Source: Aphrocallistes beatrix (taxonomy: Eukaryota; Porifera; Hexactinellida; Sceptrulophora; Aphrocallistidae). From it: 64,000 nucleotides of DNA. A program made the position numbers and the translations under genes. Numbering within the stretch: the stretch's first letter is position 1; each line of letters starts with the position of its first letter. Positions 6,474-30,790 of the stretch are shown piece after piece. The stretch is from the NCBI GenBank assembly GCA_963281255.1, contig OY725499.1, positions 434,001 to 498,000 of the forward strand. Direction: 5' to 3'. Below the pieces are notes generated by a model that was given only the letters and a program-made list of their open reading frames with translations, searched no databases and was not told the origin of the DNA.

Positions 6474-6479
6474 TATTTA

Positions 6480-6512
6480 ACAATTTATAAACAGTGATAT
6501 ATAAAAAAGATT
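6480..6512 (+). promoter_or_regulatory. Possible core promoter of NADAR gene 2
   Basis: Two TATA-like stretches (TTTATAAACAG and ATATATAAAAAAG) lie 20-45 bases before the ATG at 6527. The 5' leader would be very short. The DNA just upstream is the Helitron end, so the transposon terminus abuts the promoter. Confidence 0.35.
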
Positions 6513-6526
6513 TGGTAAATAGCAAA

Positions 6527-9800: not shown

Positions 9801-12800
9801 AAACTCAATGCCAAATATTCAAAATCACCTGCACTCTATTCATCCATCGGGATGCCAACTCTTTTCAATCCAGCTCATAATGACATCTACTTCTTTGACC
9901 CTAAAAAAGAGTATTACGAGTTCACACCTACTTCACAGCATCCTGTTTTCTTAAAAGGAAAATCATGGCCGACTGTTAGTCATTATTTTCATTGTCAGAA
10001 GTATAAAGATAGACCAGATATTATGGGACAGATAGAAAGTTGCAGCGGAGTTGATAAAGCATGGGCAATTGCTCATGATGCGAAGAATATGCAGGTAGGT
10101 TGAAGATAGAATTTCGACTTTTTTTTTGAAATATTTTCGAATATCATCCTGAATATCTCTCCTGGTTATAGCCAGTGTTTCCCGTAGCTTGCGTTTAAAG
10201 CGTTATTTAACGCGCTTAGTTAGTCGAATACGTGCTTTTGTTGTTAAATAATGCAATTTAATCGAATAAACCGCACAAAGATCACAAAATTAACGCGCTT
10301 TCCAAAAGTCCTGAGGGAAACATTAGTTATGGCCTTGACCCACCTCTAACCCTCTGATTTTAATCTCTGGCTACTTAATAATATCGTATTACCTCGAATA
10401 ATAGCTCCTCCAAAGAAGGTCTAAAGGATTTTGTTTACCACTGAATAAATAATAATGTTGAATTCTTCCCTTCTGCTATTTGTTGAATCATTCGTCGATT
10501 ATTTCCTTCTAAATTATCCTAAATCTGAAATATTAATGTTCTTTTCAGGTGGCAAATGGAGCTAAAAATTAGTAATCGCCCCGGCTACTATTCGAGTATA
10601 TACGGTGTGTAAATATAATTGTGTAAATTATCTTATTTTACATTAATGGAGTTCGGCAGGATATGATTTGCTGACTCCTGTCCTAGACTATATCACACAA
10701 CTTTTAAAACAAACACAATCTTAAGCTAACAAAACTAAGTAGTTGTTATTTCTTCTTCACGCCCAGTACATCAATCCCTTTTTAATAAGCATTGGTTTCC
10801 TCATCTCATCCCACTTTTTCAAATCTCCACCACTGGCACATGTTATTGAGCTAGAATCATCATCTTTGAAAGTTGCTGACTTTGCAGCACGTTTCGCGAC
10901 ACAATGAGCATAGTACACAGGTGCTGGAATAGACACAGCTTTGGTGCATCTAGCGTATGTATGGCATAGCTGGTAGGTTAGGGTCTGTAAGGTATCTGCG
11001 TTGAAATTATTCTCGTCCCACAATACGCGGTAATGCGTTGGGCGACTGGTGCCGTTTAGTCCGAAATGACTACAGAGGTAGAAATCGAACTCGAAAGGGT
11101 GCGTAACTTCTTTGTCTACATAAGTGCCTGGAGGGACATTTTCTGCTCTCCCTATTTGGTCCCTTATATCGCAGAACATTCTCAAGTGATGTCTTTTCTG
11201 AACACAGATGATGGTTATAGCAGGCTGGTAATTTGAATTTATCTTTCTACATGCTGCCCTCATAGCTTTCAGCTCCCATTGTAACAGATGAGTAAACTGC
11301 CCCTCCGATACTCCACTTCGATAGTATATTATCCTCTCGGGAAGATGTCCTTTGCAAAAATGTTTAAACGATTCTATTTGTTCGGTAAACATGTCACCAA
11401 ACTTGTCAATCGTTTCAAGTCTATCTTTTCTCTTGATAACTTGGCCATTCCGAGTATTGCGGGCTACAAATCTGCAATGTTTTTGAAAGCGCACAGAGCT
11501 TGCATACTTTCCAAGCCTAGAATCGAGTGAGCCGACCATAGCTGCGATGGATGGAGTATACTCATCTGCTCCTACTCCAGGATGGTTAACATTAGCACCA
11601 ATGAACATGATTGGTTTTTTGAAGAGGTCAGCACTCGGTGTACCTGCCATGTTGACAACATGATTTATTCCGCCTAGTTTCGCATTCATTTTCAGACAGA
11701 TGTTCGCAATGGTGCTTTTATTTACTCTGAAGATATTTTTTTCGCGTATACACTGTGAATTCACTCCTAGTTCCGAATCACATACAGCCTTGATATGTCC
11801 GTACATGACTGTGTTTTCTAACGGAAATGGTTTCGAATTAATGAACACAACGATCATCTGAAGACCTCTGTTCCTCTTATATATGTTAACTAGTTCAGCT
11901 CGGACCTTTTCTTTTACACGATACTCATCATCTCGCCCATCTATCCTAGGTGAGGATACATCCATCGGATCTTGAATCATCATTCCATTATTCCCGCCTA
12001 CCATCTGTATTTCGCGGATGAACTGTTCTAAATTATCCCGTCTGGCATTAATGAAATCGACAATTACCCATCTTTCCATCGATTTACTCCGGTAAAGACT
12101 ACTCCTTGAAGGTTCCAAGACCCGTCTCTTGGGACGAGGTTCTTGTTGGCATAGATAATGCTCGGAGTATCCAGCACCCGCCCCTCGACTTCAACCATCC
12201 TATTGCTCGGTTTTATGCCGTAATGGTTGAGCAAGGGATCGTTTGTTACAAACTCCTGTCTTGCAATCTGTTCAATGATCTTCTCACGTTCATGAGCAGG
12301 CTTTGTCGAGATTCCGTTTAGAGCTATCATTTGATTGTCTGTTAATTTTCCTGGTTTATGCTGACCTTGTACTATCTGACACATTTCCATTAGAATCCCA
12401 ATACTTCTATTCCTAACCATTATGCAAGGTAAATCCGGGTATTTGAGACACATATTGTATTTTTGTTGGTAATACTTTTCCGTTGTTATTTCCACCCCAC
12501 CTCTCCCTTTAACAATTTGTAGTGTTGACGACTTGCCAAAAACATCAGAATCATTTATTTTGAACACTCGGTTGAAGGCTTGATGACGTGTAGATATCTT
12601 AAGATTACACAGCAACCTCTGCAAATCACGTCTATTCTTCATCACTTCTTGTGGATTGACCGTTTTAGTGACTTCGCAAATGAAATCAATAAGATTGATA
12701 TCTTTCATCATCACACTTACAGACGTATTTAAGATAACAAACGGTTTCCATTGACCAGGTCGAATGGATTGGTAGTAACCTTCCCAGATGTCACAGCTTT

Positions 12801-15800
12801 CACTTATGTTGAAGTAATTTTCCCCTTCGCATGTTTTGAAGTAATAACTTCGCATTACGTTAACGTGACGAGATTGTGGAAGCTGTTTTAGAATCACTTC
12901 TAAAGCTCGTATTGCCGTTCTACTCTTGTCGAATTCGTCCTGGCGATCGACAGCTGTCGTATATGGCCATTTTCGGTTTATGAACTCTTGGACCATGGAT
13001 AAATCGATTTCAGATTTATGTGTTATTTCAACTCGATGCGTTCTCTTTTTCTCTCCGTTCTCGCTATCTAACCAAGTCACTCTGTATTTCTTCCTGCTGC
13101 TACCTCCCCATAAAGGCTTTTTCGTGAACAAAGCTGTTTGTCTGTCATAGACAGGCATTTCTCCTTTGAAATCTTTTCGGAAAGTCCGAATCAAATTCTC
13201 CATGACCGAGTCACACACGTATTTCTGTCTCACAGACTTATCCTCTGATTTCTTCTTGTTATCGTACACATCAACATGATACATGTGGATTTTATCTTTC
13301 GGCAGTATGATCGGAAAGAAATTTATCCGAAGCATTATCGGACGTCCTCTCGTACCGATCCCTCCTTGTGCAGGTCTCGTGGGTGGAAACAGGTCAGACC
13401 CATCTGTGAGGGATGTAGAGATACCCGTAGAGCATCCAGATGATTCGAGTAATAAAACTCGTACACATTCGCCAATTTGGGTATAGTGTTTGCTTTTTTC
13501 TATAGGGCTAGTGTCCGTAATGCTCAGATGCTTTGTCATGTTAGAGATTGGAATACAACGGTCTCTTTCGCAACCCCCTCGAGGTTCCCTCGCACCCTTA
13601 CTAGTACGTGATCTTCCGCGTGCTGCCATTCTTTGTAGTAAAATATAATAATTTCAATTTGCTAATTTATATTGAGAAATACTTAGGGCATTCAATTAGT
13701 TCGTAACCCTCGCTTTTACTTATATTGTTTAACTACATTTCTCCCATATTTGCTTCCAATTATATAGCTTATATATTCTTCTCGTAGGAGCAATTTAGTT
13801 TGATAGAATCGATTGATTATTTTCCAAGTTACGTTTTCCTAAAGATTGGCTATAGTAACCACAGAAGAATTTATGGCTTCAAAATCGAGCGAAATTTTAC
13901 TAGAGCAGAGAGCCTACATCAAAATTCGCTCATTACTCAGCGATACTCCAAGGAATATCCACCAAGATTTGGTCACCGTATTTGGGGAAGAGGCCTGTTC
14001 GGAATCGACGGTTAAGAAGTGGAGTCTTCGTTTTCGTGGAGGTAGGGAGTCGATTGAAGATGACCCTCGGATGGGACAACCCGTTACTGCTACTACCTCC
14101 AACAATATTGCTCTTGTAGCTGAAATGTGTGATTCTGATCCACATATTACAGTGGAACAGTTAGCTGGCACCCTGGACTTGTCAACGGGAAGTGTTCATA
14201 CTATCCTGACCAAGCATCTTGGTATGTCAAAGGTTTGTTCACGTTGGGTCCCACATTTCTTAACACAGGCTCAAAAGGAGAACCGACTGAGAATGGCCAA
14301 AAACTTTCTTGAAAAATATGAGCATTGCGATGAGAGGCGATTATCTGAAATATTTACCAGGGATGAAACTTGGATAGAATATTCAGAACCTCCACGCAAG
14401 CAACAGAATAAGGTATGGGTGGCAAAAGGGAGTGCTCCCCCAGGATTACCGAGACCTGATCGCTGGGCCCCCAAGGTTATGTACACGATTCTTTTTGATG
14501 CGTATGGTCCAGTGTGCCAAATCTGTGCCCCAAAGGGGCAAACAATCACTGGCAACTTCTACGCAACAATTGTTCTTCCTGAGATCCAAAAACATTATTT
14601 TAAGTGTCGACCAGCCACCGGACTCAAAGGAATAAAACTTTTGCACGATAATGCCAGACCACAAAAATCTAAGGAGGTGAAGAAAACAATTGCTTCTATG
14701 GGTCTTGAGGAGTTAGAACATCCACCATATAGTCCTGACCTAGCACCCTGCGACTTTTGGCTCTTCGATGGGCTCAAAAGACATCTAGCTAGATCAGTTT
14801 TTGAGGAAGATGTGCAAATTGAAAGGGCAATTCGTCTGTATCTCAGAGACATCCCCCAAGAGGAGTATAAGAAGACTTTTTTTAAGTGGATTGAACGTTT
14901 AAAGCTAGTAATTGAGCAGAAGGGAGACTACTTTGAACATTTAATGTAGTTTTTGATGTTTAGGTTTCCTAATAATAAAAATAATTGCAAGGTTACGAAC
15001 TAATTGAATGCCCTAAGTAATTTAGTATGGACAGGTAAATTGCATGTGTGTATGCTGGATTTTGTCCGTCTAAATAGGATTAGATTAGACAGTAGACATA
15101 ATCTGGTTGGAACGCGAAAAACTGTACAAGACCAAAGTAACTTCATATAGCAGAAGTCACTAATTAATTTATCAAAATCTGACTAGAACTGATAAAAACA
15201 GAGATATTTTATCAAGTTTTTTCAAACCAAATGCTTTAACTGAATACATTGGACAAAATGTTTTGGGCCCAGACGGTTTACCAGGTTGAAATCTAGTGGA
15301 GTTAAGACGTTTAAAAAATACAACCTAAGTCAGTCCAGCATATGAGTGCAGTGATCAATACAAACAACGAAATGGAGAGAGTTATGATTCTTCTTATTTG
15401 CTATCAAGCATTACCATTTACACATTTATACTTTAGGTAGTGCATGCTTGCTTTCTTCTTTACTGAACTTATTGGTTACAGAGTTCAAAATTTAGTCACT
15501 TTAGGACTCCATGAGATATCATATTATATTAGTACAACTGTTTGCTTACCGTTGTCTCCTATATCTTTGTCAATCAAAGTACATAAATTTACCTAATTAA
15601 ACAAGGTCTGCTTATTGCTGTCAGCAACTTCATTGTTTATTGTTTACAAAACTTCAACTACCAATCTAATTTTATTTTTTAGTGCAGCTCCTCTAGGGAT
15701 ACAGCATTATTAGCGGACAATTGGTTCTTAATAAAAACATTTAGCTAGACTTGTGAAATCACGTCTATTGGGGTTTTCACAAACTGTTATTCTGACATAC

Positions 15801-18800
15801 AGTCATTGTGTATACATATTTGTTATTCTGAACTAACCCCTGTTCCATGTTGTTAACATATGATTTATAATTATTCTAGTTCACATAATATGAAGTCTCT
15901 TTACATACATTAATACTCCGCTTGATAGGACCACCTGTCAATGAGATCAACTGCTAATTATTCTGGCCATTTATTTCCTAGAATAGAAGAGTAAAAATGT
16001 AAAGTGATGTATCGGTTGAAAAAAAGTCGCATTTGGAAGTGATAAATATTACAATCCCAATACTAAGTAATCACTATATAATGATTCATAAACACAACTA
16101 GCCATAACAAATGGTTACCTACTTTAAAATTTTCGCATCTTATATAACCCGGCGCTTATTCGAGGAAAGACGGTAATAGAAAAAAATTAGCATGTATTAT
16201 CTGCCAATAGCAGATAATACATGCTAACTTTTTTGGTTAATGAGGTTTCACGCTTAATCGGGTCAAACTACCCTCCGACCGATGTCGTCCTATTAAGCGG
16301 AGTAAAGTGATGATAAACATTGTTATAGGTGGATAATTCCTGTTCTAGAAAATATCATAAACTTTTCTAAAACCAACACAATCTTAAGCTAAATACAAAT
16401 TTAAGTAGTTTTTTACTTCAAGCCCAGTACATCAATCCCTTTTCGATAAGCATTGGTTTCCTCATCTCATCCCACTTCTCTAAATCTCCACTCCTATCAT
16501 TTGATATTGAGCTAGAATCATCATCTTTGAAAGTTGCTGACATTGCAGCACGTTTCGCGACGCAATAAGCATAGTACACAGGTGCTGGAATAGACACAGC
16601 TTTGGTGCATCTAGCGTATGTATGGCATAGCTGGTAGGTTAGGGCCTGTAGACTATCTGCATTGAAATTATTCTCGTCCCACAATACGTGGTAATGCGTT
16701 GGTCGACTAGTGCCGTTTAGTCCGAAATGACTACAGAGGTAGAAATCGAATTCGAAAGGGTGCGTAACTTCTTTGTCTACATAAGTGCCCGGAGGGACAT
16801 TTCCTGCCCTCCCTACTTGGTCCTTTCTATCACAGAACATTCTCAAGTGATGTCTTTTCTGAACGCAGATCATAGTAATAGCAGGCTGGTAGTTTGCTTG
16901 TATATTTCCACATGCTGCCCTCATAGCTTTCAGCTCCCATTGTAAAACGTGAGTGAACTGCCCTTCCGATACCCCATCTCGGTAGTAGATTATCCTCTCT
17001 GGAAGATGTCCTTTGCAAAACCATTTGAAGGAATCTATTTGTTCAGTAAACATGTCACCAAACTTGTCAATCATTTCTAGCCTATCTTTCCTCTTGATAA
17101 CTTGACCATTCCGAGTATTGTGGGCTACAGATCTGTAATGTTTTTGAAACCGTACAGAGCTTGCATACTTTGCAAGTCTAGAATCAAGCGAGCCGACCAT
17201 GGCCGCGATAGATGGAGTATACTCATCTGCTCCTACTCCTGGATGGTTAACATCAGCTCCAATGAACATGATTGGTCGTTTGAAAAGATCAGCACTAGGT
17301 GTACATGCTCTGTCGACCATGTGGTTTATTCCACCTAATTTAGCATTCATTTTCAGACAGATGTTCGCAATAGTGCTTTTATTTACTCTGAAAATATTTT
17401 TTTCCCGTATGCATTGTGAATTCACTCCTAGCTCCGAATCACATACAGCCTTGATATGTCCATACATGACTGTGTTTTCTAACGGGAATAGTTTCGAATT
17501 AATGAAAACAACGATCATCTGCAGACCTCGGTTCCTCTTATATATGTTAACTAGTTCTGCTCGGACCTTATCTTTTACACGATACTCATCGTCTCGCCCG
17601 TCTATCCTAGGTGAGGATACATCCATCGGATCTTGGATCATCATTCCACTATTCCCGCCTAACATCTGCATTTCGCGGATGAATTGTTCTAAGATATCCC
17701 GTCTGGTACCAACGAAATCGACAATTACCCATCTATCCATCTGTTTTCCTATGGGAAAGACTACCCCTTTGAGGTTCCAAGATCCCTTTCTTGGAACGAA
17801 GTTTTTATTGGCATAGATAATGCTCGGAGTGTCCAGCACTCGCCCCTCGACTTCAACCATCTTATTGCTCGGTTTTATGCCGTAATGGTTGAGCAAGGGA
17901 TCGTTTGCCACTAGCTCTTGCCTGGCAATCTGCTCAATGATCTTCTCACGTTCGAACGCTGGTTTAGCTGAGAATTTGATTACGGCCGCCGTTTGATCTC
18001 CAGTTAATTTTCCACTCTTGTGTTGACCTTGTACAATCCAGCACACTTCTAATGGAATCGCAGTACCTTTATTCCCAACTATTATGCAAGGCAGATCCGG
18101 GTATTTAAGACGCATCTTGTATTTCTCGAAGAAATATTTCTCTGTTGTCGTGTCGCCTCCGCCATCACCTTTAAAGACTTGTTGTGATGGAGGTTTACCA
18201 AAGACCTGCCTCGCACTATTATTTACTTTGCATTCTCGTTTGAAGCCTTGATGGCGTGTAGATATCTTAAGATTGCACAGCAACCTCTGCAAATCACGTC
18301 TCTTCCTCATCGCTTCGTGTGGACTGTTCGTTTTAGTCGCTTCGCAAATGAAATCAATAAGATTGATATCTTTCATCATCGCACTTACAGACGTATTTAA
18401 AACAATAAAAGGTTTCCATTGGCCAGGTCGAATGGACTGGAAATAGCCTTCCCAGATGTCACAGCCTTCACCTAAGTTGAAAGGTTCACCTTGATGCGGT
18501 TTGAAGTAGAAACTTCGCATTATGTTAACGTGACGAGATTGTGGAAGTTGTTTCAGAATCACTTCAAAAGCTTGTATTGCAGTTCTCCCCTTGTCGAATT
18601 CGTCTTGACGATCAATAGCTGTCTTATATGGTCTTTTTCGGTTTATGAATTCTTGGAGCATGGATAAATCGACTTCGGATGCATGCGCTATTTCAACTCG
18701 ATGCGTTCTCTTTCTGTCTCCATTCTCACTATCTAGCCAATTCACTGTGTGCTCTTACTTGCTGCTACCTCCCCATAAAGGTTTCTTCGTGAACAAAGCT

Positions 18801-21800
18801 GCTTGTCTATCATAGACGGGCATTTCTGCTTTGAAATCTTCTCGAAAAGTTCGAATCAAATTCTCCATGACCGAGTTGCACACGAATTTCTGTCTCACAG
18901 ACTTATCCTCTGATTTCTTGTTATCATCATACACGTCAACATGGTACATTTGAATTTTATATTTCGGCAGTATGATCGGAAAGAAATTTATCCGAAGCAT
19001 TATCGGGCGTCCTCTCGTACCGATCCCTCCTTGTGTAGGTCTCGTGGGTGGAAACAGGTCAGACGCCTCTATGAGGGGTGCAGAACCAGTTGCACCGGAT
19101 ATGGTATATCGCTCTATTATCTTGCCACCTTTAGGTTCTCGTGCGGTTGCACTTGCTCCAGGTTCAGGGGGTAACTCTGGTTCTGGAAGGAACTTCACAC
19201 CCTCGGCTAACACCACCTCTTCAGCCGGTTTAGAAGCTTGCCTCGTGGTTTCTATGGACGTAGTAGAAGGAAGTGAGTTGAGGACAAACGGTTGAGCATG
19301 TTGGAATGTTCTGATTTGAATATTTTCGCTTTGTTCTGTGGGAACAGTTTCCGTAATACTCAAGTGCTTTGTCATGTTAGAGACGCAAATACAACGGCAT
19401 TTTTCGCAATCATCTCGATGTCTCCTCCCGCTGTTGTTAGTGGGTGATTTGCCGCGGGTGGCCATTCTTTAAAGTTAAAATGTCTTTGACTAATATTTTA
19501 GAACCAAAATACTGTTTTAAACTAGACAAATGCGTAAGAAAGTGAATAATTTGGAAAACTCGATAGAATCGTTTAAAACCAGGATAGATTATTTAACCCA
19601 TCTTATCCTGTTTGATTTGTTACTTGACACATAATTTTATGGGAGTTAAAATTTGAAAAAAGCTAGTCAAGCTTAGTTATCCGAATACATAATGGCCTTT
19701 TAGTGCTGGAATAAGACTCAAATTGGTAGCATCATAGAAAATAGAATGGGCTAATGATGATGAGGAGAGAATACAGTATACATTTCCAAAATGATCGGGT
19801 TTACAAGAGATCGCCTATCCTAATGTCCTACCTTCAGCACACAGCGAATAATATGCACGAGTCCTCGAGTAAAGTCGAACTTCTCTTCGTATCACTCATT
19901 TTGCACATTTATCGTTCGAGTATATACCTATAAGGCCTAATTAGTTTCTCCTTCATTGAACTTATTAGTTATACACAGAGTTTGATATTTGATATACTAC
20001 TATGTACAGATATATCGTTAATATACTCACACAGTTGTTTGCTTATTCAATCAGTCTATATTCTTTGTTATTCAAAGTGCATGAAATTGAATTTACCTCA
20101 TCAACAAGGTTCGAATTATTATTGTTGTCGATAACTTCACATGGTTTAGTATTTACGAATAAAATTATATAATTTAATGGTGGACCAGTTGACTTGTCCC
20201 TTTTCCTTGGTCGATTTTATATCTAAATTAAGTTAAGCTACAAAGTTACATTTTCAAAAAATTACTCCTGTAAATTAGGAGACAAGTTGGTATTTGGGAC
20301 GAGTTGTAATGGTCACAATTTGTCATTCACTGGTATTCATTGAAGACTCTTTATTGTATGCCACTTTAGTTAACAACAATTTTATATTGGATTTTAGTGT
20401 AGTTGCTCTATATGAATATGTCTTTCATCTACTTATTTAATTTTACACAAATGGAGTTCGGCAGGATAAGATTTGCTGACTCCTGTTCTAGACTATATCA
20501 CACAACTTTTAAAACAAACACAATCTTAAGCTAAATACAGATTTAAATAGTTTTTTCTTCAAGCCCAGTACATCAATCCCTTTTCGATAAGCATTGGTTT
20601 CCTCATCTCGTCCCACTTCTCCAAATCTCCACAACTACCACTTGATATTGAAGTAGAATCATCATCTTTGAAAGTTGCTGACATTGCAGCACGTTTTGCG
20701 ACCCAATGAGCATAGTACACAGGTGCAGGAATAGACACAGCTTTAGTGCATTTAGCATATGTATGGCATAGCTGGTAGGTTAGGGCCTGTAGGCTATCTG
20801 CGTTGAAGTTATTCTCGTCCCACAATACGTGGTAATGCGTTGGACGACTGGTGCCCTGTAATCCGAAATGACTACATAGGTAGAAATCGAACTCGAAAGG
20901 GTGCGTAACTTCTTTGTCTACATAAGTGCCCAGGGGGACATTTCCCCCCCTCCCTACTTGATCCCTTCTATCACAGAACATCTTCAGATTATGTCTTCTC
21001 TGAACACAGATAATAGTGATAGCAGGCTGGTAGTTTGCTTGTATCTTTCCACATGCTTCCCTCATAGCTTTCAGCTCCCATTGTAACAGATGAGTGAACT
21101 GCCCCTCGGATACCCCACCTCTGTAATAGATTATCCTCTCGGGAAGATGTCCTTTGCAAAACTGTTTGAAGGATTCTATTTGTTCGATAAACATGTCCCC
21201 AAACTTCTCAATCATTTCTAGCCTATCTTTTCTCTTGATAACTTGACCATTCCGAGTATTGTGGGCTACAGATCTGGAATGTTTTTGAAAGCGTACAGAG
21301 CTTGCATACTTTGCAAGTCTAGAATCAAGCGAGCCGACCATGGCCGCGATAGATGGAGTATACTCATCTGCTCCTACTCCAGGATGGTTAACATTAGCAC
21401 CAATGAACATGATTGGTTTTTTGAAGAGGTCAGCACTCGGTGTACCTGCCATGTTGACAACATGATTTATTCCGCCTAGTTTCGCATTCATTTTCAGACA
21501 GATGTTCGCAATGGTGCTTTTATTTACTCTGAAGATATTTTTTTCGCGTATACACTGTGAATTCACTCCTAGTTCCGAATCACATACAGCCTTGATATGT
21601 CCGTACATGACTGTGTTTTCTAACGGAAATGGTTTCGAATTAATGAACACAACGATCATCTGAAGACCTCTGTTCCTCTTATATATGTTAACTAGTTCAG
21701 CTCGGACCTTTTCTTTTACACGATACTCATCATCTCGCCCATCTATCCTAGGTGAGGATACATCCATCGGATCTTGAATCATCATTCCATTATTCCCGCC

Positions 21801-24800
21801 TACCATCTGTATTTCGCGGATGAACTGTTCTAAATTATCCCGTCTGGCATTAATGAAATCGACAATTACCCATCTTTCCATCGGTTTTACTCCGGTAAAG
21901 ACTACTCCTTGAAGGTTCCAAGACCCGTCTCTTGGGACGAGGTTCTTGTTGGCATAGATAATGCTCGGAGTATCCAGCACCCGCCCCTCGACTTCAACCA
22001 TCCTATTGCTCGGTTTTATGCCGTAATGGTTGAGCAAGGGATCGTTTGTTACAAACTCCTGTCTTGCAATCTGTTCAATGATCTTCTCACGTTCAAATGC
22101 TGGTTTAGCTGAGAATCTGATGACGGCCGCCGTTTGATCTCCAGTTAATTTTCCACTCTTGTGTTGACCTTGCACAATCCAGCACACTTCTAATGGAATC
22201 GCCGTACCTTTATTCCCAACCATTATGCAAGGCAAATCCGGGTATTTGAGACGCATCTTGTATTTCTCGGCGAAATATTTCTCTGTTGTTGTGTCGCCTC
22301 CGCCATAATCTTTAAAGACTTGTTCTGATGGAGGTTTGCCAAAAACCTGCCTCGCAGTATTATTTACTTTGCATACTCGTTTGAAGCCTTGATAGCGTGT
22401 AGATATCTTAAGATTGCACAGCAACCTCTGCAAATCACGTCTCTTCCTCATCGCTTCGTGTGGACTGTTCGTTTTAGTAGCTTCGCAAATGAAATCAATA
22501 AGATTGATATCTTTCATCATCGCTTTTACAGACGTATTTAAGACAATAAAAAGTTTCCATTGGCCAGGACGGATGGATTGGTAGTAACCTTCCCAGATGT
22601 CACAGCCTTCTCCCAAGTTGAAAGGTTCACCAAGATTCGGTTTGAAGTAGTAACCTCGCTTTACTCTAACGTGACGAGATTGTGGAAGCTGTTTCAGAAT
22701 CACTTCTAAAGCGTTTATTGCAGTTCTTCCCTTGTCGAATTCGTCCTGACGATCGACAGCTGTCGTATATGGCCTTTTTCGGTTTATGAATTCTTGAACC
22801 ATGGATAAATCGATTTCGGATGCATGCGCTATTTCAACTCGATTCATTCTCTTTCTGTCTCCATTCTCATTATCTAACCAATTCACTGTGTACTCCTTAC
22901 TGCTACTACCTCCCCATAAAGGTTTCTTCGTGAACAAAGCTGCTTGTCTATCATAGACTGGCATTTCTCCTTTGAAATCTTCTCGAAAAGTCCGAATCAA
23001 ATTCTCCATGACCGAGTTGCACACGAATTTCTGTCTCACAGACTTATCCTCTGATTTCTTGTTGTCATCATACACGTCAACATGGTACATGTGGATTTTA
23101 TATTTCGGCAGTATGATCGGAAAGAAATTTATCCGAAGCATTATCGGGCGTCCTCTCGTACCGATCCCTCCTTGTGCAGGTCTCGAGGGTGGATACAGGT
23201 TAGATCTCTCTATGAGGGGTGCAGAACTAGTTGCACCGGATATGGTATATCGCTCTATTATCTTGCCACCTTTAGGTTCTCTTGCGGTTGCACTTGCTCC
23301 AGGTTCAGGAGGTAACTCTGGTTCCGGAAGGAACTTCACTCCCTCGGCTAACACCACCTCTTCAGCCGGTTTAGAAGCTTGCCTCGTGGTTTCTTTGGAC
23401 ATCGTAGAAAGAAATGGAGTGGGTACAAACGGTTCAGCATGTTGGAATGTTCTGATTTGGGTATTTTCGCTTTGTTCTGTGGGAACAGTTTCCGTAATAC
23501 TCAAGTGCTTTGTCATGTTAGAGACGCAAATACAACGGCATTTTTCGCAATCATCTCGATGTCTCCTCCCGCTGTTGTTAGTGGGTGATTTACAGCGGGT
23601 GACCATTCTTTAAAGTTAAAGAAGTATTTGACTAATATCTGTTAACTGATGAACAGAGTTTTGTCCTTAGAAATATACTTGAGTGGGACAGTAGGCCGAA
23701 TGTCGAATACAGGATAAAGTAAACAAAACCAAAATACTATTTTTAAAACTAAATAAATTAGTAAGAAAGTGAATAATTTTGAAAACTCTACATAATTGTT
23801 TAAAACCAAGATAGATTATTTAAAAAATCTTATTTTATGTGACTAACAACCACTGACTGGACAAATTGGATAAACCTTATCAACCCTGCATATTAGTAAA
23901 TATGACCTTCAACTAGGGCATTTGTCGATCTTGGAAAAGAAGATCGCGATCGCAATCAAGATCAAATTTTCAGAACGGAACTCAATCCCAATCTCGATCA
24001 TTTTTCCGATTGATTTTATTACTTGACACGTAATTTTTATCATGAATAAATTTCGAAAAAACAATATCAAGCTTCTCTGTCAGAATACATAATATTCTTT
24101 TAGTGCTAGAAGAAGACACAGATTGTTAACATCATAGAAAAATAGATTAGATTAATGACGGTGAGGAGAGAAGACAGTACAAATTTCCAAAAATGATCGG
24201 GTTTACAAAAGATCGCCGATCTTAATGTCTTACCTGAGTATAGTAGAAAATTATATTCGTATCACTCATTTTGCACATTTAGAGTTGAGTATATATATAT
24301 AAGGCTTACTTTCTCCTTCATTGTACTTACTAGTTACAGAGTTTGATATTTGATATATGTACCTATATATCAATATTATACTCGCAATTGTTTGCTTATT
24401 CAATCAGTCTATATTCTTTGTTATTCAAAGTGCATGAAATTGAATTTACCTCATCAACAAGGTTCGAATTATTATTGTTGTTAATGACTTCATTCATGGT
24501 TTAGTGTTTACGAATAAAATTATATAATTTAATGGTGGATCAGTTGACTTGTCCCTTTTCCTTGGTCGATTTTATATCTAAATTAAGTTAAGCTACAAAG
24601 TTACATTTTCAAAAAATTACCCCTGTAAATTAGGAAACAAGTTGGTATTTGGGACGAGTTGTAATGGTCACAATTTGTCATTCACTGGTATTCATTGAAG
24701 ACTCTTTATTGTATGTCACTTTAGTAAACAACAATTTTATATTGGATTTTAGTGTAGCTCTATATGAATATGTCTTTCATCTACTTATTTGTTAAATTTT

Positions 24801-27800
24801 ATTTTATTTTACATAAATGGAGTTCGGCAGGATATGATTTGCTGACTCCTGTTCTAGAATATATCACACAACTTTTAAAACAAACACAACCTTAAGCTAA
24901 ATACAGATTTAAATAGTTTTTTCTTCAAGCCCAGTACATCAATCCCTTTTCGATAAGCATTGGTTTCCTCATCTCATCCCACTTCTCTAAATCTCCACTA
25001 CTACCACTTGATATTGAAGTAGAATCATCATCTTTGAAAGTTGCTGACATTGCAGCACGTTTCGCGACCCAATGTGCATAGTACACAGGTGCTGGACCAG
25101 ATATAACTCTAGTGCATTTAGCGTATGTATGGCATAGCTGGTAGGTTAAGGTCTGCAGGCTATCTGCGTTGAAGTTATTCTCGTCCCACAATACGTGGTA
25201 ATGCGTTGGACGACTGGTACCCTGTAATCCGAAATGACTACAGAGGTAGAAATCAAACTCGAAAGGGTGCGTAACTTCATTGTCTACATAAGTGCCCGGG
25301 GGGACATTTCCTCCCCTCCCTACTTGATCCCTTCTATCGCAGAACATCTTCAGATTATGTCTTCTCTGAACACAGATAATAGTGATAGTAGGCTGGTAGT
25401 TTGTTTGTATCTTTCCACATGCTTCCCTCATAGCTTTCAGCTCCCATTGCAAAACATGAGTGAACTGCCCCTCCGATACCCCACCTCTGTAGTAGATTAT
25501 CCTTTCGGGAAGAAGTCCTTTGCAAAACTGTTTGAATGATTCTATCTGTTCTGTAAACATGTCACCAAATTTGTCAATCATTGCAAGCCTATCTTTCCTC
25601 TTGATAACTTGGCCATACCAGGAATTATGAGCGACTGATCTAGGATGTTTTTGAAAGCGTACAGAACTTGCATACTTTCCAAGTCTAGAATCAAGCGAAC
25701 CGACCATGGCCGCGATAGATGGAGTATACTCATCTGCCCCGACTCCAGGATGGTTAACATCAGCACCAATGAACATGATTGGGCGTTTGAAGAGGTAAGC
25801 ACTGGGCGTAGGTGCCGTGTCGACAATGTGGTTTATTCCTCCTAATTTTGCATTCATTTTCAGACAGATGTTCGCAATAGTGCTTTTATTTACTCTGAAA
25901 ATATTTTTTTCGCGTACACACTGTGAATTCACGCCTAGCTCCGAATCACATACAGCCTTGATGTGTCCGTACATGACTGTGTTTTCTAACGGAAATGGTT
26001 TCGAATTAATAAACACAACGATCATCTGAAGATCTCTGTTCCTCTTATATATGTTAACTAGCTCAGCTCGGACCTTTTCTTTTACACGATACTCATCGTC
26101 TCGCCCATCTATCCTAGGCGAAGATATATCCATCGGATCTTGAATCATCATTCCACTATTCCCGCCTACCATCTGTACTTCTCGGATGAATTGTTCCAAG
26201 TTATCCTGTTTGGTACCAACGAAATCGACAATTACCCATCTTTCCATCTGCCTTCCTCCAGGAAAGACTACCCCCTGGAGGTTCCAAGATCCGTCTCTTG
26301 GAACGAGGTTCCTGTTTTGATAGACAATGCTCGGAGTATTCAGCACCCGTCCCTCGACTTCGACCATCTTATTGCTCGGTTTTATGCCGTAATGGTTGAG
26401 CAAGGGATCGTTTGTGACTAACTCTTGCCTGGCAATCTGTTCAATGATCTTCTCACGTTCAAACGCTGGTTTAGCTGAAAATCTGATGATGGCCGCCGTT
26501 TGATCTCCAGTTAATCTTCCACTCTTGTGTTGACCTTGCACAATCCAGCACATTTCCAATGGAATCGCCGTACCTTTATTCCCAACCATTATGCAAGGCA
26601 AATCCGGGTATTTGAGACGTATCTTGTATTTCTCGGCAAAATATTTCTCTGTTGTCGTGTCGCCTCCGCCATCACCTTTAAAAACTTGTTGTAATGGAGG
26701 TTTGCCAAAAACCTGCCTTGCACTATTATTTACTTTGCATACTCGTTTGAAGCCTTGATGGCGTGTAGATATCTTAAGATTGCACAGCAACCTCTGCAAA
26801 TCACGTCTCTTCCTCATCGCTTCGTGTGGACTATCCGTTTTAGTAGCTTCGCAAATGAAATCAATTAGATTGATATCTTTCATCATCGCACTTACAGACA
26901 TATTTAAGACAATAAAAGGTTTCCATTGGCCAGGTCGAATGGATTGGAAATAGCCTTCCCAGATGTCACAGCCTTCACCTAAGTTGAAAGGTTCACCTTG
27001 ATGCGGTTTGAAGTAGAAACTTCGCATTATGTTAACGTGACGAGATTGTGGAAGCTGTTTTAGAATCACTTCAAAAGCTTGTATTGCAGTTCTTCTCCGA
27101 TTGAATTCGTCCTGACGATCGACAGCTGTCGTATATGGCCTTTTTCGGTTTATGAATTCTTGGAGCATGGATAAATCGACTTCGGATGCATGCGCTATTT
27201 CAACTCGATTCATTCTCTTTCTGTCTCCATTCTCGCTATCTAACCAATTCACTGTATACTCTTTCTTGCTGCTACCTCCCCATAAAGGTTTCTTCGTGAA
27301 CAAAGCTGCTTGTCTATCATAGACAGGCATTTCTCCTTTGAAATCGTCTCCGCACAGACTTATCTTCTGATTTCTTGCTGTCATCATACACGTCAACATG
27401 GTACATGTGAATTTTATCTTTCGGCAGTATGATCGGAAAGAAATTTATCCGAAGCATTATCGGTCGTCCTCTCGTACCGATCCCTCCTTGTGTAGGTCTC
27501 GAGGGTGGATACAGGTCAGACCCCTCTATGAGGGGTGCAGAACTAGTTGCACCGGATATGGTATATCGCTCTATTATCTTGCTATCTTTAGGTTCTTGTG
27601 CGGTTGCACTTGCTCCAGGTCCAGGAGGTAACTCTGGTTCCGGAAGAAACTTCACTCCCTCGGCCAACCTCATCTCTTCAGCCGGTTTAGAAACTTGTCT
27701 CGTGGTTTCTATGGACATGGTAGAAGGAAATGGGTTGGGAACAAATGGTTCAGCATGTTGGAATGTCCTGGTTTGAGTATTTTCGCTTTGTTCTGTGGGA

Positions 27801-30790
27801 TCAGTTTCCGTAATACTCAAGTGCTTTGTCATGTTAGAGACGCAAATACAACGGCATTTTTCGCAATCATCTCGTCTCCTCCCGCTGTTGTTAGTGAGTG
27901 ATTTGCCGCGGGTGGCCATTCTTTAAAGTTAAAGAAGTCTTTGACTAATATTGTAAGAATATAATTCAGTAGGACAGTAGGCAGAATTTACAAAACAGGA
28001 TAAAGTTAGCAAAACCAAAATACTGTTTTTAAACTAGACAAATGCGTAAGAAAGTGAATAATTTGGAAAACTCGATAGAATCGTTTAAAAACAGGATAGA
28101 TTATTTAACGCATCTTATCCCGATTGATTTTGTTACTTGACACATAATCTTTATGGGAGTTAAAATTCGAAAAATGCTAGTCAAGCTTAGTTATCCGAAT
28201 ACGTAATAGCCTTTTAGTGCTAGAATAAGACTCAAATTGGTAGCATCATAGGAAATAGAACAAGCTAATGATGGTGAAGAGAGAATACAGTATACATTTC
28301 CAAAAATGATCGGGTTTACAGAAGGTCGCCGATCTTAATGTCCTACCTTCAACACACAACGAATAATATGCACGAGTCCTCGAGTAAGGTGGAAACCTAT
28401 CTTCGTATCACTCATTTTGCACATTTATAGTTCGAGTATATATAAGGCCTAATTAGTTTATCCTTCATTGAACTTATTAGTTACAGAGTTTGATATTTGA
28501 TATATGTACATATATATCGATATTATACTCGTAGTCATCAACAAGGTTCGAATTATTATTGTTGTCGATAACTTCATTCATGCTTTAGTGTTTACGAATA
28601 AAATTATATAATTTAAAGGGACCAGTCAACTTGTCCCTATTTTTTGGTCGATTTTATATCTAAATTTTAAAAGTTACATTTTCAAAAAAATTACCCCTGT
28701 AAATTCGGAAACAAGTTGGTATTTGGGACTAGTTGGTATATGGTAAAAGTTGTAATGAGTGCAATTTGGCATTCACTGGTATTCATTGAAGACTCTTTAT
28801 TGTATGCCACTTTAGTAAACAACAATTTTATATTGGATTTTAGTGCAGCTCTATATGAATATATCCTTATGGCATGGATAGTGTACTACGTCCGTCAGTA
28901 CATTCGTACGCTCTAAGCTGTTAAATCGACAGACAATTTTACTAAATTTGTTATGTAGGATTCCTTTATGGTGTAAATGTGCGTCATCTACTTTTTGTTA
29001 AATTTATCTCGTCCGATTTTTTAAGTCGAACATTTGAAATAGTAATTGTATATATATCTGTATTGTAGGCATACTTTACTCGAACTTATTGAACACTCGG
29101 TATGTTCATATATTCGGAAATAGTACATATTTTAATAATTCCTTTTCTAGTTAATGCCTAAAAACTGGGATGAAATCAGAGATAGAATAATGTATGAGGC
29201 ATTTGAAGCCAAGTTTGAGCAGCACCAAGATGTCTTGACTAAGCTTATAGAGACTGAAAATAGAAGACTGCTATTTGCTGCTGAGAATGAACACTGGGGC
29301 ATCGGAAAGGATAAAAAGGGTAATGATGGTAGTTTCACACTGTAATATTTGAAGCTAAGTTGACTAATTCATTGAAATATGATGAAGAATTATGAATTAT
29401 TCAATTAATGATTTATTCAAAATCTCAAACATTAGTGCAGATTCTATGCCCAAAAGTGGTTTAAAGGTTTATCATGTTATATACCTCTAACATTGCTCAG
29501 TCCCTAAGCGAAATATCAAATATTTTTTTCATTATTTTAGTTTCAAATTTTGAGTAATTCGTTGATAATTTATGAATTAGTCAACTTAGATTAGAAGTGT
29601 AAATAATTTTTGAATTTACCGTTTTGCACAATTAGAATAGTGTAGCTATCGTCCTAGAATTTCGGTCCCGGAATTTTGGTCACCAGAATGGCCTGTTCAG
29701 TTCTTAGCTATTTCCCAATCATTTTCACCCTTATTTTCAACTCTACACTCCAATCCAAAAGCCTCAACTGCTACCAAACTTCCATATTTGTTCCCGTTTA
29801 TTTTAACTCTAATAAACCAAATTCCCATGAAACGAAATTTCCAGAGACAAAATTTCCCAGGACAACTCCGTGATGAAAAATGCAGGGTTAAAAATTCCAG
29901 GGACGAATGTTCCGCTACCAGCAGCACAATTGATCCATTCAATGTTTATAGGTGAGAACAAAATAGGGAAAATCTTAATGGAGATTCGTAGAAAGTGCTT
30001 TCCCTCAATGAAGTCTCTTTCAATGATGACTCCATCAGCATCACCAGCACCTTTTCAACTCATCAACAAACCTATTCCAAACAAACAGAAACATGACGAG
30101 AATGCGATATATTTTTTTGAGAAAGGTTCTTCCCACTATCCCCTCACAAGTTTTGCGCCTTACCCTTTTTATATGGATGGGAAACAATGGCCTACTGTCA
30201 ACCACTATTTTCAAGCTCAGAAATTCCAAAGCCAGCCAAGTATACAGGATATGATCAGACAAGCTGAAACACCATTTCTAGCACTTGAACTTGCACAAGA
30301 TAGCAATGAGGTATTTTCATTCATTTTTGTTTTTATTGTTGAAAAATTATGCATAGTTGTAGGATTTCTAGAGCCTGTGAGTCGATTCTAGAAGAGACAA
30401 TTATTACAGGAAACTTTTGTAAAATCAAGATACAAGGGTAACAAAAATAAATAATACAGTCAGGGTCATTTATTATGAACTAACCTCCTGGTCCCAATTT
30501 CATTTTTTATATAAAACTTGTATTGAATCAAGTTCGCTTAATATGAAGTATCTCTAGTATGAACATGTTTTTTGGTCCCCTGGTGGTTCACAATAAGCGA
30601 CCCTGACTGTACTTTTTCTAAGTTTAATTCATTTTTGCTATCCTTGTATATCAATTTTATGAAATTTCCCTGCAATTTTTGTCTCTTCTTCTCAATCGAT
30701 GTTTCTTTTTTAAAGTTATTTAACAAACCCAGACATTTAGACAAACTGAATATTGTGATTTTCATTTAATAGTATGTCTTGGAAAAATAA
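6527..30790 (+). CDS. Multi-domain NADAR protein, gene 2, with a 19-kb intron holding the Argonaute array
   Basis: Exons 6527-6832, 6996-7151, 7614-7785, 8242-8654, 9202-9373, 9760-10094, 29151-29319, 29952-30310 and a doubtful last mini-exon 30773-30790. All junctions keep frame with the same phase 0 / phase 1 alternation as gene 1. The product has three whole NADAR domains and the front half of a fourth. The ATG at 6527 sits in AAAATGG and starts an acidic, proline-rich leader (PPRIPPPIPLVP). The sixth intron (10095-29150) contains four minus-strand Argonaute copies. If that intron is no longer spliced, the gene is split into two fragments. AATAAA signals occur at 30824 and 30828. Confidence 0.68.
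6996..7151 (+). CDS. NADAR gene 2 exon 2: rest of front half of domain 1
   Basis: Acceptor ATTCGTGTAG, donor GTAAGT. Encodes SSFQLDNSFWKTLEHYVQAQ and KFIGHPTKISKIQ, ending VAHYTNDPENSR. This is the only domain of the window that keeps Glu before HY, as in E. coli YbiA. 52 codons, phase 0 at both ends. Confidence 0.75.
7614..7785 (+). CDS. NADAR gene 2 exon 3: middle of domain 1
   Basis: Acceptor CCCATTTTAG, donor GTATGT. Encodes IWNKEKRKHMYRGLYAKMVQ, ELMGTDNKYLIYE and TWGIGTDKS. 172 nt, phase 0 in, phase 1 out. Confidence 0.8.
7877..8088. mobile_element. MITE of about 212 bp
   Basis: Inverted ends CATATACATACATGCCAA and TTGGCATGTATGCATATG. The interior has several copies of GTCCCGC / GCGGGAC. 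No coding capacity. Exact borders and target duplication are not clear. Confidence 0.55.
8242..8654 (+). CDS. NADAR gene 2 exon 4: tail of domain 1 and front half of domain 2
   Basis: Acceptor TTTCTATCTAG, donor GTGAGC. GKNYLGLLLCHIRLYF closes domain 1. A Pro/Thr-rich linker follows, then YYEFNNYSFFGFKLDGFYWP and TLNHFYQAQKF. The Glu position is Asn. Phase 1 in, phase 0 out. Confidence 0.82.
8720..8907. mobile_element. Tigger/pogo-like MITE, 188 bp
   Basis: Left end CAGTCGACTCCGCTTAATAG and inverted right end, TA on both sides (8718-8719, 8908-8909). Same family as 988-1144. Confidence 0.78.
8982..9167. mobile_element. Tigger/pogo-like MITE, 186 bp
   Basis: Second member 74 bp after the previous one in the same intron. 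The left end is slightly changed (CACTTGACTCCGC) and the right end is the canonical GCGGAGTCGACTG before TA. Confidence 0.72.
9202..9373 (+). CDS. NADAR gene 2 exon 5: middle of domain 2
   Basis: Acceptor TATTTTGTAG, donor GTAAAC. Encodes DSVVLRGLEAKFSQNNDLLK, LLIETDGKK and AYWGMGMENR. 172 nt. It starts 34 bases after the second Tigger-like MITE, which has left the acceptor intact. Confidence 0.8.
9532..9693. mobile_element. hAT-like MITE, 162 bp
   Basis: CAGCGATTTTCAACC at the left and GTTTGGAACAACTG at the right, flanked by TGCTAGTG and TGCTAGTC, an 8-bp duplication with one mismatch. Internal GTGGACCACTAAGTGTCC block is shared with 2900 and 60298. Confidence 0.7.
9760..10094 (+). CDS. NADAR gene 2 exon 6: tail of domain 2 and front half of domain 3
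   Basis: Acceptor TTTTAACAG (the only CAG acceptor of the locus), donor GTAGGT at 10095. GINRLGGLLSDIRLKL closes domain 2. Then IYFFDPKKEYYEFTPTSQHP and TVSHYFHCQKY open domain 3. The Glu position is Ser. The second half of this domain lies 19 kb away, beyond the Argonaute array. Confidence 0.8.
10173..10325. mobile_element. hAT-like MITE, 153 bp
   Basis: Starts CAGTGTTTCCC and ends GGGAAACATTA. Flanking 8-mers GTTATAGC and GTTATGGC differ at one base. It lies at the left end of the giant intron, before the Argonaute array. Confidence 0.6.
10326..10756. other. Left border of the Argonaute array
   Basis: No coding sequence. From about 10645 the sequence (ATGGAGTTCGGCAGGATATG and CTGACTCCTG) matches the 3' flanks of copies C (about 20450) and D (about 24817), so the duplicated unit begins near here. 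Confidence 0.5.
10757..13629 (-). pseudogene. Argonaute copy A, broken by a one-base frameshift
   Basis: N-terminal frame 13629-12064 (N, L1, PAZ, L2) and C-terminal frame 12118-10757 (MID, PIWI, ending GLMYWA). The break is at about 12079-12084, where copy C has one base more (CGGTTTTAC against CGATTTAC). Slicer positions are Asn (GANVNHPG), Glu (RLETID), Ser (YRSGVSEG) and His (YYAHCV). The tetrad is therefore incomplete even without the frameshift. It is the most divergent copy at the N-terminus: the acidic-proline linker is shorter and the Cys cluster is reduced (CERDRC). A 743-nt stretch (11550-12292) is otherwise identical to copy C. The start ATG lies 52 bp from a mariner insertion. 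Confidence 0.85.
13682..15017 (+). mobile_element. Complete mariner-family transposon, 1336 bp
   Basis: Perfect 27-bp inverted repeats at 13682-13708 and 14991-15017, starting CTTAGGGCATTCAATTAG. TA at 13680-13681 and 15018-15019 is the target duplication. It holds one uninterrupted transposase frame. Perfect ends plus an open frame point to a recent insertion. Its ends resemble those of the 721-bp non-autonomous element at 57018-57738 (CTTAGGTCATTTCATAAG). Confidence 0.95.
13873..14949 (+). CDS. Mariner transposase (DD34D)
   Basis: 358 residues from the ATG at 13873; an in-frame TTG further upstream is unlikely to be used. Two N-terminal helix-turn-helix regions are followed by a mariner linker with WVPHFLTQ (residues 126-133). 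The catalytic Asp residues are 164 (FTRDETWIEY), 259 (LLHDNARPQ) and 294 (LAPCDFWLF), with 34 residues between the last two, the mariner spacing. SPDLAPCDFWLF is the classic family signature. The length is close to the usual 340-350. No stop or frameshift is present, so the enzyme may be active. It cuts and pastes its own element at TA sites in the nucleus. Confidence 0.95.
   Translation: MASKSSEILLEQRAYIKIRSLLSDTPRNIHQDLVTVFGEEACSESTVKKWSLRFRGGRESIEDDPRMGQPVTATTSNNIALVAEMCDSDPHITVEQLAGTLDLSTGSVHTILTKHLGMSKVCSRWVPHFLTQAQKENRLRMAKNFLEKYEHCDERRLSEIFTRDETWIEYSEPPRKQQNKVWVAKGSAPPGLPRPDRWAPKVMYTILFDAYGPVCQICAPKGQTITGNFYATIVLPEIQKHYFKCRPATGLKGIKLLHDNARPQKSKEVKKTIASMGLEELEHPPYSPDLAPCDFWLFDGLKRHLARSVFEEDVQIERAIRLYLRDIPQEEYKKTFFKWIERLKLVIEQKGDYFEHLM
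15020..16417. other. Spacer between Argonaute copies A and B
   Basis: Mostly the 5' flank of the copy A unit, related to 19490-20440. It contains a degraded Tigger-like element (about 15908-16306) whose ends carry CTCCGCTTGATAGGAC and GTCCTATTAAGCGGAG. Inside that is a perfect hairpin at 16187-16227. No open coding region is supported. Confidence 0.5.
16187..16227. repeat. Perfect 17-bp hairpin
   Basis: TTAGCATGTATTATCTG at 16187-16203 and its exact complement at 16211-16227, with a 7-base loop CCAATAG. It lies in the A-B spacer inside the degraded Tigger-like repeat. Confidence 0.7.
16418..19465 (-). pseudogene. Argonaute copy B, one in-frame stop
   Basis: Same frame throughout, from the ATG at 19465 (GAATGGCC context) to GLMYWA at 16418, 1015 codons apart from the stop. 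The only lesion is a TAA at 18755-18757, where copies C and D have a Lys/Ser-Lys codon after WGGSS. Slicer positions are Asp (GADVNHPG), Glu (RLEMID) and Asp (YRDGVSEG), but the final His is Tyr (YYAYCV). It is thus the copy with the best catalytic site yet interrupted early, in the N domain. An internal start downstream would lack the N domain. Readthrough or a very recent mutation is possible. Confidence 0.85.
19466..20558. other. Spacer between Argonaute copies B and C
   Basis: Homologous to 23607-24924 and 27920-28870. It holds the 5' flank of B and the 3' flank of C. No open frame is supported. The block just 5' of each ATG (ATATTAGTCAAA and CTTTAACTTTAAAGA on the coding strand) is kept in B, C and D. 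Confidence 0.5.
20559..23606 (-). CDS. Argonaute copy C, the only intact copy; slicer residues lost
   Basis: 1015 residues, one exon. Residues 1-150 are a disordered leader with a Cys cluster (CEKCRCIC, 20-27). The Argonaute N domain follows at about 150-295, L1 about 318-362, PAZ about 366-485 (YPDLPCIMVGN, PLEVCWIVQGQ), L2 about 500-555, MID about 575-710 and PIWI about 730-990. The C-terminus GLMYWA matches the usual YFA-type end. Compared with human AGO2, the 5'-phosphate pocket Tyr, Lys, Gln, Lys is kept at 668, 672, 684 and 705. The slicer tetrad reads Asn738, Glu797, Gly830, His967 instead of Asp-Glu-Asp-His. The protein should bind guide RNA but not cut. The sequence belongs to the AGO rather than the PIWI clade by its motifs (CLKMNAKLGG, FDFYLCSH). 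The start is in TTTAAAGAATGG, shared with B and D. Confidence 0.92.
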   Translation of the reverse strand: MVTRCKSPTNNSGRRHRDDCEKCRCICVSNMTKHLSITETVPTEQSENTQIRTFQHAEPFVPTPFLSTMSKETTRQASKPAEEVVLAEGVKFLPEPELPPEPGASATAREPKGGKIIERYTISGATSSAPLIERSNLYPPSRPAQGGIGTRGRPIMLRINFFPIILPKYKIHMYHVDVYDDNKKSEDKSVRQKFVCNSVMENLIRTFREDFKGEMPVYDRQAALFTKKPLWGGSSSKEYTVNWLDNENGDRKRMNRVEIAHASEIDLSMVQEFINRKRPYTTAVDRQDEFDKGRTAINALEVILKQLPQSRHVRVKRGYYFKPNLGEPFNLGEGCDIWEGYYQSIRPGQWKLFIVLNTSVKAMMKDINLIDFICEATKTNSPHEAMRKRRDLQRLLCNLKISTRYQGFKRVCKVNNTARQVFGKPPSEQVFKDYGGGDTTTEKYFAEKYKMRLKYPDLPCIMVGNKGTAIPLEVCWIVQGQHKSGKLTGDQTAAVIRFSAKPAFEREKIIEQIARQEFVTNDPLLNHYGIKPSNRMVEVEGRVLDTPSIIYANKNLVPRDGSWNLQGVVFTGVKPMERWVIVDFINARRDNLEQFIREIQMVGGNNGMMIQDPMDVSSPRIDGRDDEYRVKEKVRAELVNIYKRNRGLQMIVVFINSKPFPLENTVMYGHIKAVCDSELGVNSQCIREKNIFRVNKSTIANICLKMNAKLGGINHVVNMAGTPSADLFKKPIMFIGANVNHPGVGADEYTPSIAAMVGSLDSRLAKYASSVRFQKHSRSVAHNTRNGQVIKRKDRLEMIEKFGDMFIEQIESFKQFCKGHLPERIIYYRGGVSEGQFTHLLQWELKAMREACGKIQANYQPAITIICVQRRHNLKMFCDRRDQVGRGGNVPLGTYVDKEVTHPFEFDFYLCSHFGLQGTSRPTHYHVLWDENNFNADSLQALTYQLCHTYAKCTKAVSIPAPVYYAHWVAKRAAMSATFKDDDSTSISSGSCGDLEKWDEMRKPMLIEKGLMYWA
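23607..24924. other. Spacer between Argonaute copies C and D
   Basis: Same spacer family as 19466-20558, with an extra stretch of about 200 bases near 23640-24000 that the other spacer lacks. No coding sequence is supported. Confidence 0.5.
24925..27919 (-). pseudogene. Argonaute copy D, broken by a 50-base deletion
   Basis: The N-terminal frame starts at 27919 and runs out of frame near 27346. The downstream frame covers DFKGEMPVYDRQ to GLMYWA (24925). Alignment with copy C shows 50 bases missing between GAAATC (27345) and CACAGACT (27353), within the N domain; 50 is not a multiple of three. Slicer positions are Asp (GADVNHPG), Ala (RLAMID in place of RLEMID), Gly (YRGGVSEG) and His (YYAHWV), so two catalytic residues are lost. 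L1, PAZ, MID and PIWI are otherwise intact and would make an 800-residue protein if started internally. Confidence 0.85.
28871..29150. other. Right border of the Argonaute array and end of the giant intron
   Basis: Homology to the array spacers fades near 28870. The rest is plain intron ending in the acceptor TTCCTTTTCTAG before the NADAR exon at 29151. Confidence 0.5.
29151..29319 (+). CDS. NADAR gene 2 exon 7: middle of domain 3
   Basis: Acceptor CCTTTTCTAG, donor GTAATG. Encodes NWDEIRDRIMYEAFEAKFEQ, VLTKLIETENRR and EHWGIGKDKK. Phase 0 in, phase 1 out, exactly what the donor at 10095 needs. The open frame and intact splice sites argue that the domain is still made despite the 19-kb intron. 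Confidence 0.78.
29952..30310 (+). CDS. NADAR gene 2 exon 8: tail of domain 3 and front half of domain 4
   Basis: Acceptor ATGTTTATAG. GENKIGKILMEIRRK closes domain 3. AIYFFEKGSSHYPLTSFAPY, FYMDGKQWPTVN and HYFQAQKFQSQ open domain 4. The Glu position is Asn. Donor GTATTT at 30311, phase 0. Confidence 0.78.
30457..30609. mobile_element. MITE, CAGTCAGGGTC family, 153 bp
   Basis: Inverted ends CAGTCAGGGTC and GACCCTGACTG-like (GCGACCCTGACTG), flanked by TA. A second member is at 63327-63516. Confidence 0.75.
30773..30790 (+). CDS. Possible last mini-exon of NADAR gene 2
   Basis: Acceptor TTTAATAG followed by TAT GTC TTG GAA AAA TAA. The first codons resemble the start of the middle exon at 3065 (TAT GTG AAG AAA). 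The end of gene 2 may therefore be a middle exon that acquired an early stop. AATAAA signals follow 34-38 bases later. The call rests on short sequence only. Confidence 0.3.
   Translation, partial: YVLEK

Follow-up and report, generated by a model that had tools for sequence, protein, structure and literature searches.

A tandem array of intronless Argonaute genes with altered catalytic tetrads in the hexactinellid sponge Aphrocallistes beatrix

Layout of the array and its surroundings

The window analyzed here is a 64,000-nucleotide stretch of the Aphrocallistes beatrix genome that corresponds to positions 434001-498000 of contig C13, within a 100.5 Mb genome of 28 contigs. On the minus strand, at 10757..27919 of the window, lie four intronless AGO-type Argonaute genes in tandem, designated copies A, B, C and D (Table 1). 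The coordinates, strand and residues given in the original prediction were all correct on rechecking, and so was its claim that C is the only open copy: C is open over 1015 amino acids, and the frames of A, B and D are damaged. A search of the genome for SL1 RNA gave no match, and the control genomes gave none either.

Table 1 Positions of the Argonaute copies, their tetrad codons, shared tracts and neighboring features in the window
Feature	Position	Strand	Details
AGO copy A	10757..13629	-	tetrad N-E-S-H (AAT/GAA/AGT/CAT at D597/E637/D669/H807); 1-nt deletion near 12080; 174-nt in-frame deletion near 13445
AGO copy B	16418..19465	-	tetrad D-E-D-Y (GAT/GAA/GAT/TAT at D597/E637/D669/H807); premature stop 18755-18757
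AGO copy C	20559..23606	-	open, 1015 aa; tetrad N-E-G-H (AAT/GAA/GGT/CAT at D597/E637/D669/H807)
AGO copy D	24925..27919	-	tetrad D-A-G-H (GAT/GCA/GGT/CAT at D597/E637/D669/H807); 50-nt deletion near 27350
D597 codon	C 21393..21395	-	AAT Asn in C; A 11591-11593 Asn; B 17252-17254 Asp; D 25759-25761 Asp
E637 codon	D 25582..25584	-	GCA Ala in D; A 11414-11416, B 17075-17077, C 21216-21218 Glu
D669 codon	C 21117..21119	-	GGT Gly in C; D 25483-25485 Gly; A 11315-11317 Ser; B 16976-16978 Asp
H807 codon	B 16565..16567	-	TAT Tyr in B; A 10904-10906, C 20706-20708, D 25072-25074 His
A-C tract	C 21352..22095	-	nearly identical to A 11550-12292; contains N597
C-D tract	C 20637..21170	-	about codons 803-980; D 25003-25536; common derived changes including the G669 codon
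B-C spacer	19466..20558		shares homology with 23607-24924 (C-D spacer) and with 27920-28868 (upstream of D)
Mariner-type element	13677..15022	+	inverted ends; 367-aa transposase ORF 13846-14949

Copy C is a eukaryotic AGO-clade Argonaute by its domain order and guide pocket. The domains follow the order N, L1, PAZ, L2, MID, PIWI, with ArgoN, ArgoL1, PAZ, ArgoL2 and Piwi above the Pfam cut-offs and ArgoMid, at a score of 25.3, just under its cut-off of 27.5. By phmmer it aligns with human AGO3 over residues 139-988 (E 1e-163) and AGO2 over residues 130-988 (E 3e-162). An AlphaFold2 prediction of copy C from six sequences gave a mean pLDDT of 42 and a pTM of 0.27, and this model was unusable.

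A question raised by this layout is how did the array originate? The B-C and C-D spacers share homology with each other and with the DNA upstream of D, and the repeated unit therefore takes in upstream DNA. The spacers are distinct and the array copies differ by 7-15% in DNA. The intronless frames suggest retroposition. They do not settle it, because the array spacers match the loci of the intact relatives on contigs C16, C8 and C11 in short stretches only, and because the DNA around 3’ fragments on contigs C8 and C1 has matches to C8 or C16 flanking sequence as well.

A mariner-type element with an open transposase frame sits upstream of copy A, 47 nt from its start. The longest genomic copies of this element are 90-98% identical, so it has probably been active recently. 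Exons encoding NADAR domains flank the Argonaute array in tandem (window positions 2145-10103 and 29870-30391). Five of the six ORFs tested around the array match the domain, two of them above the Pfam cut-off, and a genome search returned 37 NADAR matches with groups on contigs C12 (including 1391572-1454268), C8, C13 and C18. At window positions 30975-62002, 11 related ORFs form a further array; the longest are mostly 381-428 aa, and the ORFs resemble multi-pass membrane proteins; neither of the two tested gave a Pfam match.

Catalytic residues, guide pocket and relatives

The catalytic DEDH sites are taken here to be D597, E637, D669 and H807 of human AGO2. A slicing Argonaute is defined by a DEDX tetrad in which X is H or D, and none of the four array copies has one: the residues read NESH in A, DEDY in B, NEGH in C and DAGH in D, as originally called and now confirmed at the codon level. 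In copy C, phmmer had matched the glutamate of AGO2/AGO3 to a different residue, beside an insertion. This placement was overruled by the paralog alignment, which has E at the originally assigned column in seven of seven other proteins. Across the array, seven tetrad residues are changed, through at least four different inactivating replacements (N597, A637, G669 and Y807). Each tetrad residue survives in at least one array copy, and on this basis the losses are probably later than formation of the array.

The original prediction held that each copy lost the tetrad in a different way. The four patterns do differ, but the losses are not all independent, since N597 in A and C and G669 in C and D lie within shared tracts. 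The A-C tract contains identical runs of 531 and 210 nt, and no other stretch of identity between A and C exceeds 53 nt. Within the tract A and C cluster with the C16 gene; by this pattern it is a recent gene conversion that carried N597. Together with the derived changes common to C and D, these tracts indicate from sequence that gene conversion has moved a dead active-site variant between tandem copies. The history of site 669 is uncertain because the second base of the G669 codon of C and D is also found in A’s Ser codon, and the Ser of A may be either a further step from Gly or a separate event. Over codons 537-740, the MID tract, A and C group with C16 with a support of 95, whereas C16 is distant from the array at the gene ends, a pattern suggestive of gene conversion across the two contigs, C13 and C16.

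The guide 5’-phosphate pocket is presumably formed by the residues equivalent to Y529, K533, Q545, K566, K570 and R812 of AGO2. The four array copies and the relatives on C16 and C8 have the same residue at all six positions. Pocket residues Tyr668, Lys672, Gln684 and Lys705 had been singled out in copy C; they are present as described, but they are not specific to C, since every copy keeps the pocket. For this reason, pocket conservation in C was dropped as proof of selection and used as a rate test only, in which the absence of any change at the six pocket codons in any array copy departs from neutrality (p=0.0015).

A genome search for PIWI domains returned 24 matches, 11 of which cover the domain in one frame (four in the array and seven outside it). 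The tetrad was scored in these 11 genes, the other 13 matches being partial or split by introns. All seven genes outside the array keep DEDH (five) or DEDD (two). They lie outside the window on other contigs, by which they are named here: C16, C8, C11, C3, C7-AGO and the PIWI-type genes on C1 and C7. The genes C16 (L011), C8 (L009) and C11 (L010) belong to the intronless AGO family of the array, all with DEDH, and share 90%, 83% and 51% protein identity with copy C, respectively; copy C and C16 are 86.6% identical in DNA. The C3 (L014) and C7-AGO (L015) genes are likewise intronless AGO genes, with DEDD in place of DEDH. C16 is open and strongly constrained (omega about 0.1), with a less constrained MID tract (two silent and six replacing private changes). 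The C8 gene (C8:812500-820500) is relaxed and lacks 138 nt in the PAZ region, yet DEDH is intact and none of its 113 invariant PIWI codons is changed. By sequence, C8 is the opposite pattern and a natural contrast to the array.

Selection on the tetrad and on the remainder of the array

Rates were estimated on the array branches with a codon model of three segments, each with its own tree. The tetrad evolves with an omega of 1.13, which does not differ from 1 (p=0.79), whereas the other 110 invariant PIWI codons give 0.093 and the 190 variable PIWI codons 0.278; fixing the tetrad at these two rates is rejected with p=4.7e-5 and p=0.009, respectively. Leaving out one tetrad codon at a time gives values of 0.78-1.65. 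On a coarse grid, the tetrad value (1.0) was attained by random four-codon sets in 120 of 20000 draws from the other invariant PIWI codons and in 714 of 20000 draws from all other PIWI codons, permutation frequencies (0.006 and 0.036) that make a weaker case than the likelihood ratio. Because the tetrad evolves at the neutral rate, the pattern argues for release from selection and not for active disarming.

Counts of changed codons also point beyond chance. The invariant set comprises PIWI codons invariant among C16, C11, C3 and C7-AGO, and excludes the catalytic histidine, for which some paralogs have Asp. Within this set, all three catalytic codons changed in some copy compared with eight of the other 110 (Fisher p=0.0007), and among invariant D, E and H codons between codons 150 and 1005 the counts are three of three versus two of 25 (p=0.003). 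Relative to C16, the PIWI changes of A and B clearly avoid invariant codons. The avoidance is not significant in C (five of 113 invariant versus 16 of 191 variable codons, p=0.14) or in D (six of 113 versus 22 of 191, p=0.051), catalytic changes included in both, and in D five of the 13 private PIWI replacements hit invariant codons, close to the 0.37 expected by chance. A comparison of PAZ and MID with PIWI had been proposed as a check. It showed no relaxation of PIWI: omega within the array is 0.17-0.18 for PIWI, 0.14-0.22 for MID and 0.18-0.43 for PAZ.

Did constraint persist once a catalytic residue had been lost? On the branches of the C-D tract that follow the shared D669G change, omega is 0.234 for C and D together (p=2.8e-4 against 1), 0.079 for C alone (p=0.0018) and 0.197 over codons 803-935 (p=9.8e-4), with tract ends that were picked after the data were seen. 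For C and D together, p ranges from 0.0003 to 0.003 unmasked, and masking of possible conversion sites weakens the test, with an omega of 0.228-0.358 and p of 0.014-0.044 across four choices of tract ends; a small second conversion limited to codons 819-820 is also possible. Strict private counts give five replacements among 12 changes for codons 803-935 (p=0.016) and 10 among 18 for codons 803-980 (p=0.063). Taken by itself, D does not fall clearly under the neutral rate (p of 0.089 and 0.060). Overall, these tests lend moderate support to purifying selection having continued in C and D after the shared loss of D669.

Frame damage provides a further measure of timing. In the frame of C16, B carries a single stop and the other three copies carry none, compared with 11-15 stops expected per lineage had the copies been dead since they split; this deficit indicates that the frames broke late. 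Private omega is 0.11 for C16, 0.31 for D, 0.32 for B, 0.58 for C, 0.59 for C8 and 0.78 for A, of which the value for C rests on just 16 sites (six silent and 10 replacing changes). The N-to-L2 part of copy C has an omega of 0.59 and fits neutrality (p=0.25 against 1), and copy C itself may therefore be at the onset of decay.

Interpretation and comparison with known systems

The original prediction proposed that selection kept guide binding but not slicing. The neutral rate at the tetrad, the constrained invariant PIWI codons, the unchanged pocket and the moderately supported constraint after loss of D669 speak for this proposal; the pocket as evidence specific to C and the full independence of the losses had to be given up. 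We hypothesize that a tandem array of intronless AGO-clade genes arose from a DEDH family whose intact relatives sit on other contigs, and that the catalytic site in the array was freed from selection and collected at least four inactivating replacements, partly spread by gene conversion, while the fold, the remaining PIWI domain and the guide 5’-end pocket would have been held under purifying selection. The products would have loaded small-RNA guides without cleaving, whether they formed a silencing complex that does not slice or kept guides from intact slicers, before the frames of A, B and D were broken late, which would make C the last open copy. That the array lost slicing and was kept for non-cleaving guide binding, with recent breakage of A, B and D, is a reading to which we give an even chance, and three broken frames out of four and sequence from a single species count against it. 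What the analysis demonstrates is the gene sequences, the intact relatives, the mosaic structure of the copies and the patterns of selection; that the products are expressed, load guides, do not slice or serve in silencing or as decoys is inferred. It is doubtful, if conceivable, that disarmed Argonautes are evolving here as an array, passing dead residues by gene conversion, with guide-binding non-cutters that compete with intact slicers of the same family.

The main rival, which is a tentative but serious possibility, is the birth and death of redundant duplicates, in which copies that sliced normally until recently were no longer needed, the tetrad was hit by chance early in their decay and C is simply not yet broken. 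Such a history would account for the damage to A, B and D, for the few stops that mark this breakage as recent, for the high private omega of A, for an N-to-L2 part of C that cannot be told from neutral and for the lack of clear protection of invariant PIWI codons in C or D, and the dispersed, constrained and open DEDH gene C16 could do the work. However, chance decay should not prefer catalytic codons over other invariant PIWI codons, the loss of D669 seems older than part of the constrained history of C and D, and C8 decays by another route that spares every invariant PIWI codon. An improbable alternative is selection against slicing, such that cleavage by extra copies was harmful and every copy came to favor disarmed variants, which gene conversion then spread; this agrees with the four or more distinct inactivating replacements, which affect four codons, and with the presence of N597 and G669 in two copies each, within shared tracts, but the tetrad rate is not above neutral and relaxation suffices. 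It is more improbable still that the array acts as RNA, with transcripts or antisense small RNAs from broken copies regulating the intact relatives. Copy C and C16 have 86.6% DNA identity, and pseudogene-antisense small RNAs are described in C. elegans (PMC10101689), but this role leaves the protein-level constraint and the tetrad-specific release unexplained. Least probable of all are assembly or base-calling errors or allele mixing behind some breaks or residues, for which it speaks that A has a break of just 1 nt and that the array is a repeat; the copies, however, are well separated in DNA with distinct spacers, and read errors would hardly produce a 50-nt deletion or alter seven tetrad residues.

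If the array was kept for non-cleaving guide binding, natural evolution would have separated slicing from guide binding inside one genome, with near-copies disarmed and close relatives intact. Copy C and C16, with 90% protein identity and a dead versus an intact tetrad, would, if C is expressed, be a ready comparison for cleavage-free AGO function.

Non-cleaving Argonautes are well known; the nematode WAGO proteins, a separate clade, are not known to carry the tetrad, and human AGO4 has Gly at the third tetrad position. The slicing-poor human AGO4 and AGO1 are like the array in their AGO-clade domain order and changed PIWI tetrad, but in the array the tetrad differs in every copy, partly via gene conversion, three of four copies are broken and DEDH relatives persist. 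Native human AGO4 is thought to be slicing incompetent (PMC6987405), and copy C, if expressed, could act likewise in a non-slicing silencing complex or could sequester guides as do plant AGO18 and AGO10. Rice AGO18 and Arabidopsis AGO10 provide a precedent for proteins that function through guide binding without slicing, and a catalytic mutant of AGO18 mostly complements where a small-RNA-binding mutant does not (PMC4358150). Unlike the array, rice AGO18 retains its catalytic triad; these are plant proteins, and sequestering by the array is putative. Nematodes, like this genome, have an expanded Argonaute set. The tetrad is present in relatively few AGOs (PMC10101689), and its loss in this genome was seen in one array of an AGO-clade family. 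The Drosophila obscura group shares repeated recent AGO duplication with the array, in its case of Ago2 and thought to be due to parasite conflict; adaptive change and sex-biased expression are described for these duplicates in the abstract, which leaves tetrad loss unmentioned (PMC6505081). Among titles in the open-access literature, none on such a disarmed Argonaute array was found, and the available portion of PMC6211395 contains nothing on AGO catalytic residues.

An additional AGO is present in separate pieces on contig C19, and one of its exons closely resembles human AGO2 along an 80-residue stretch. Two AGO classes are described in sponges and cnidarians (PMC5569025; PMC6085071), and the C19 gene beside the intronless family resembles this arrangement, a likeness at the level of sequence. 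The C19 AGO would fit a miRNA-class partner beside the intronless family.
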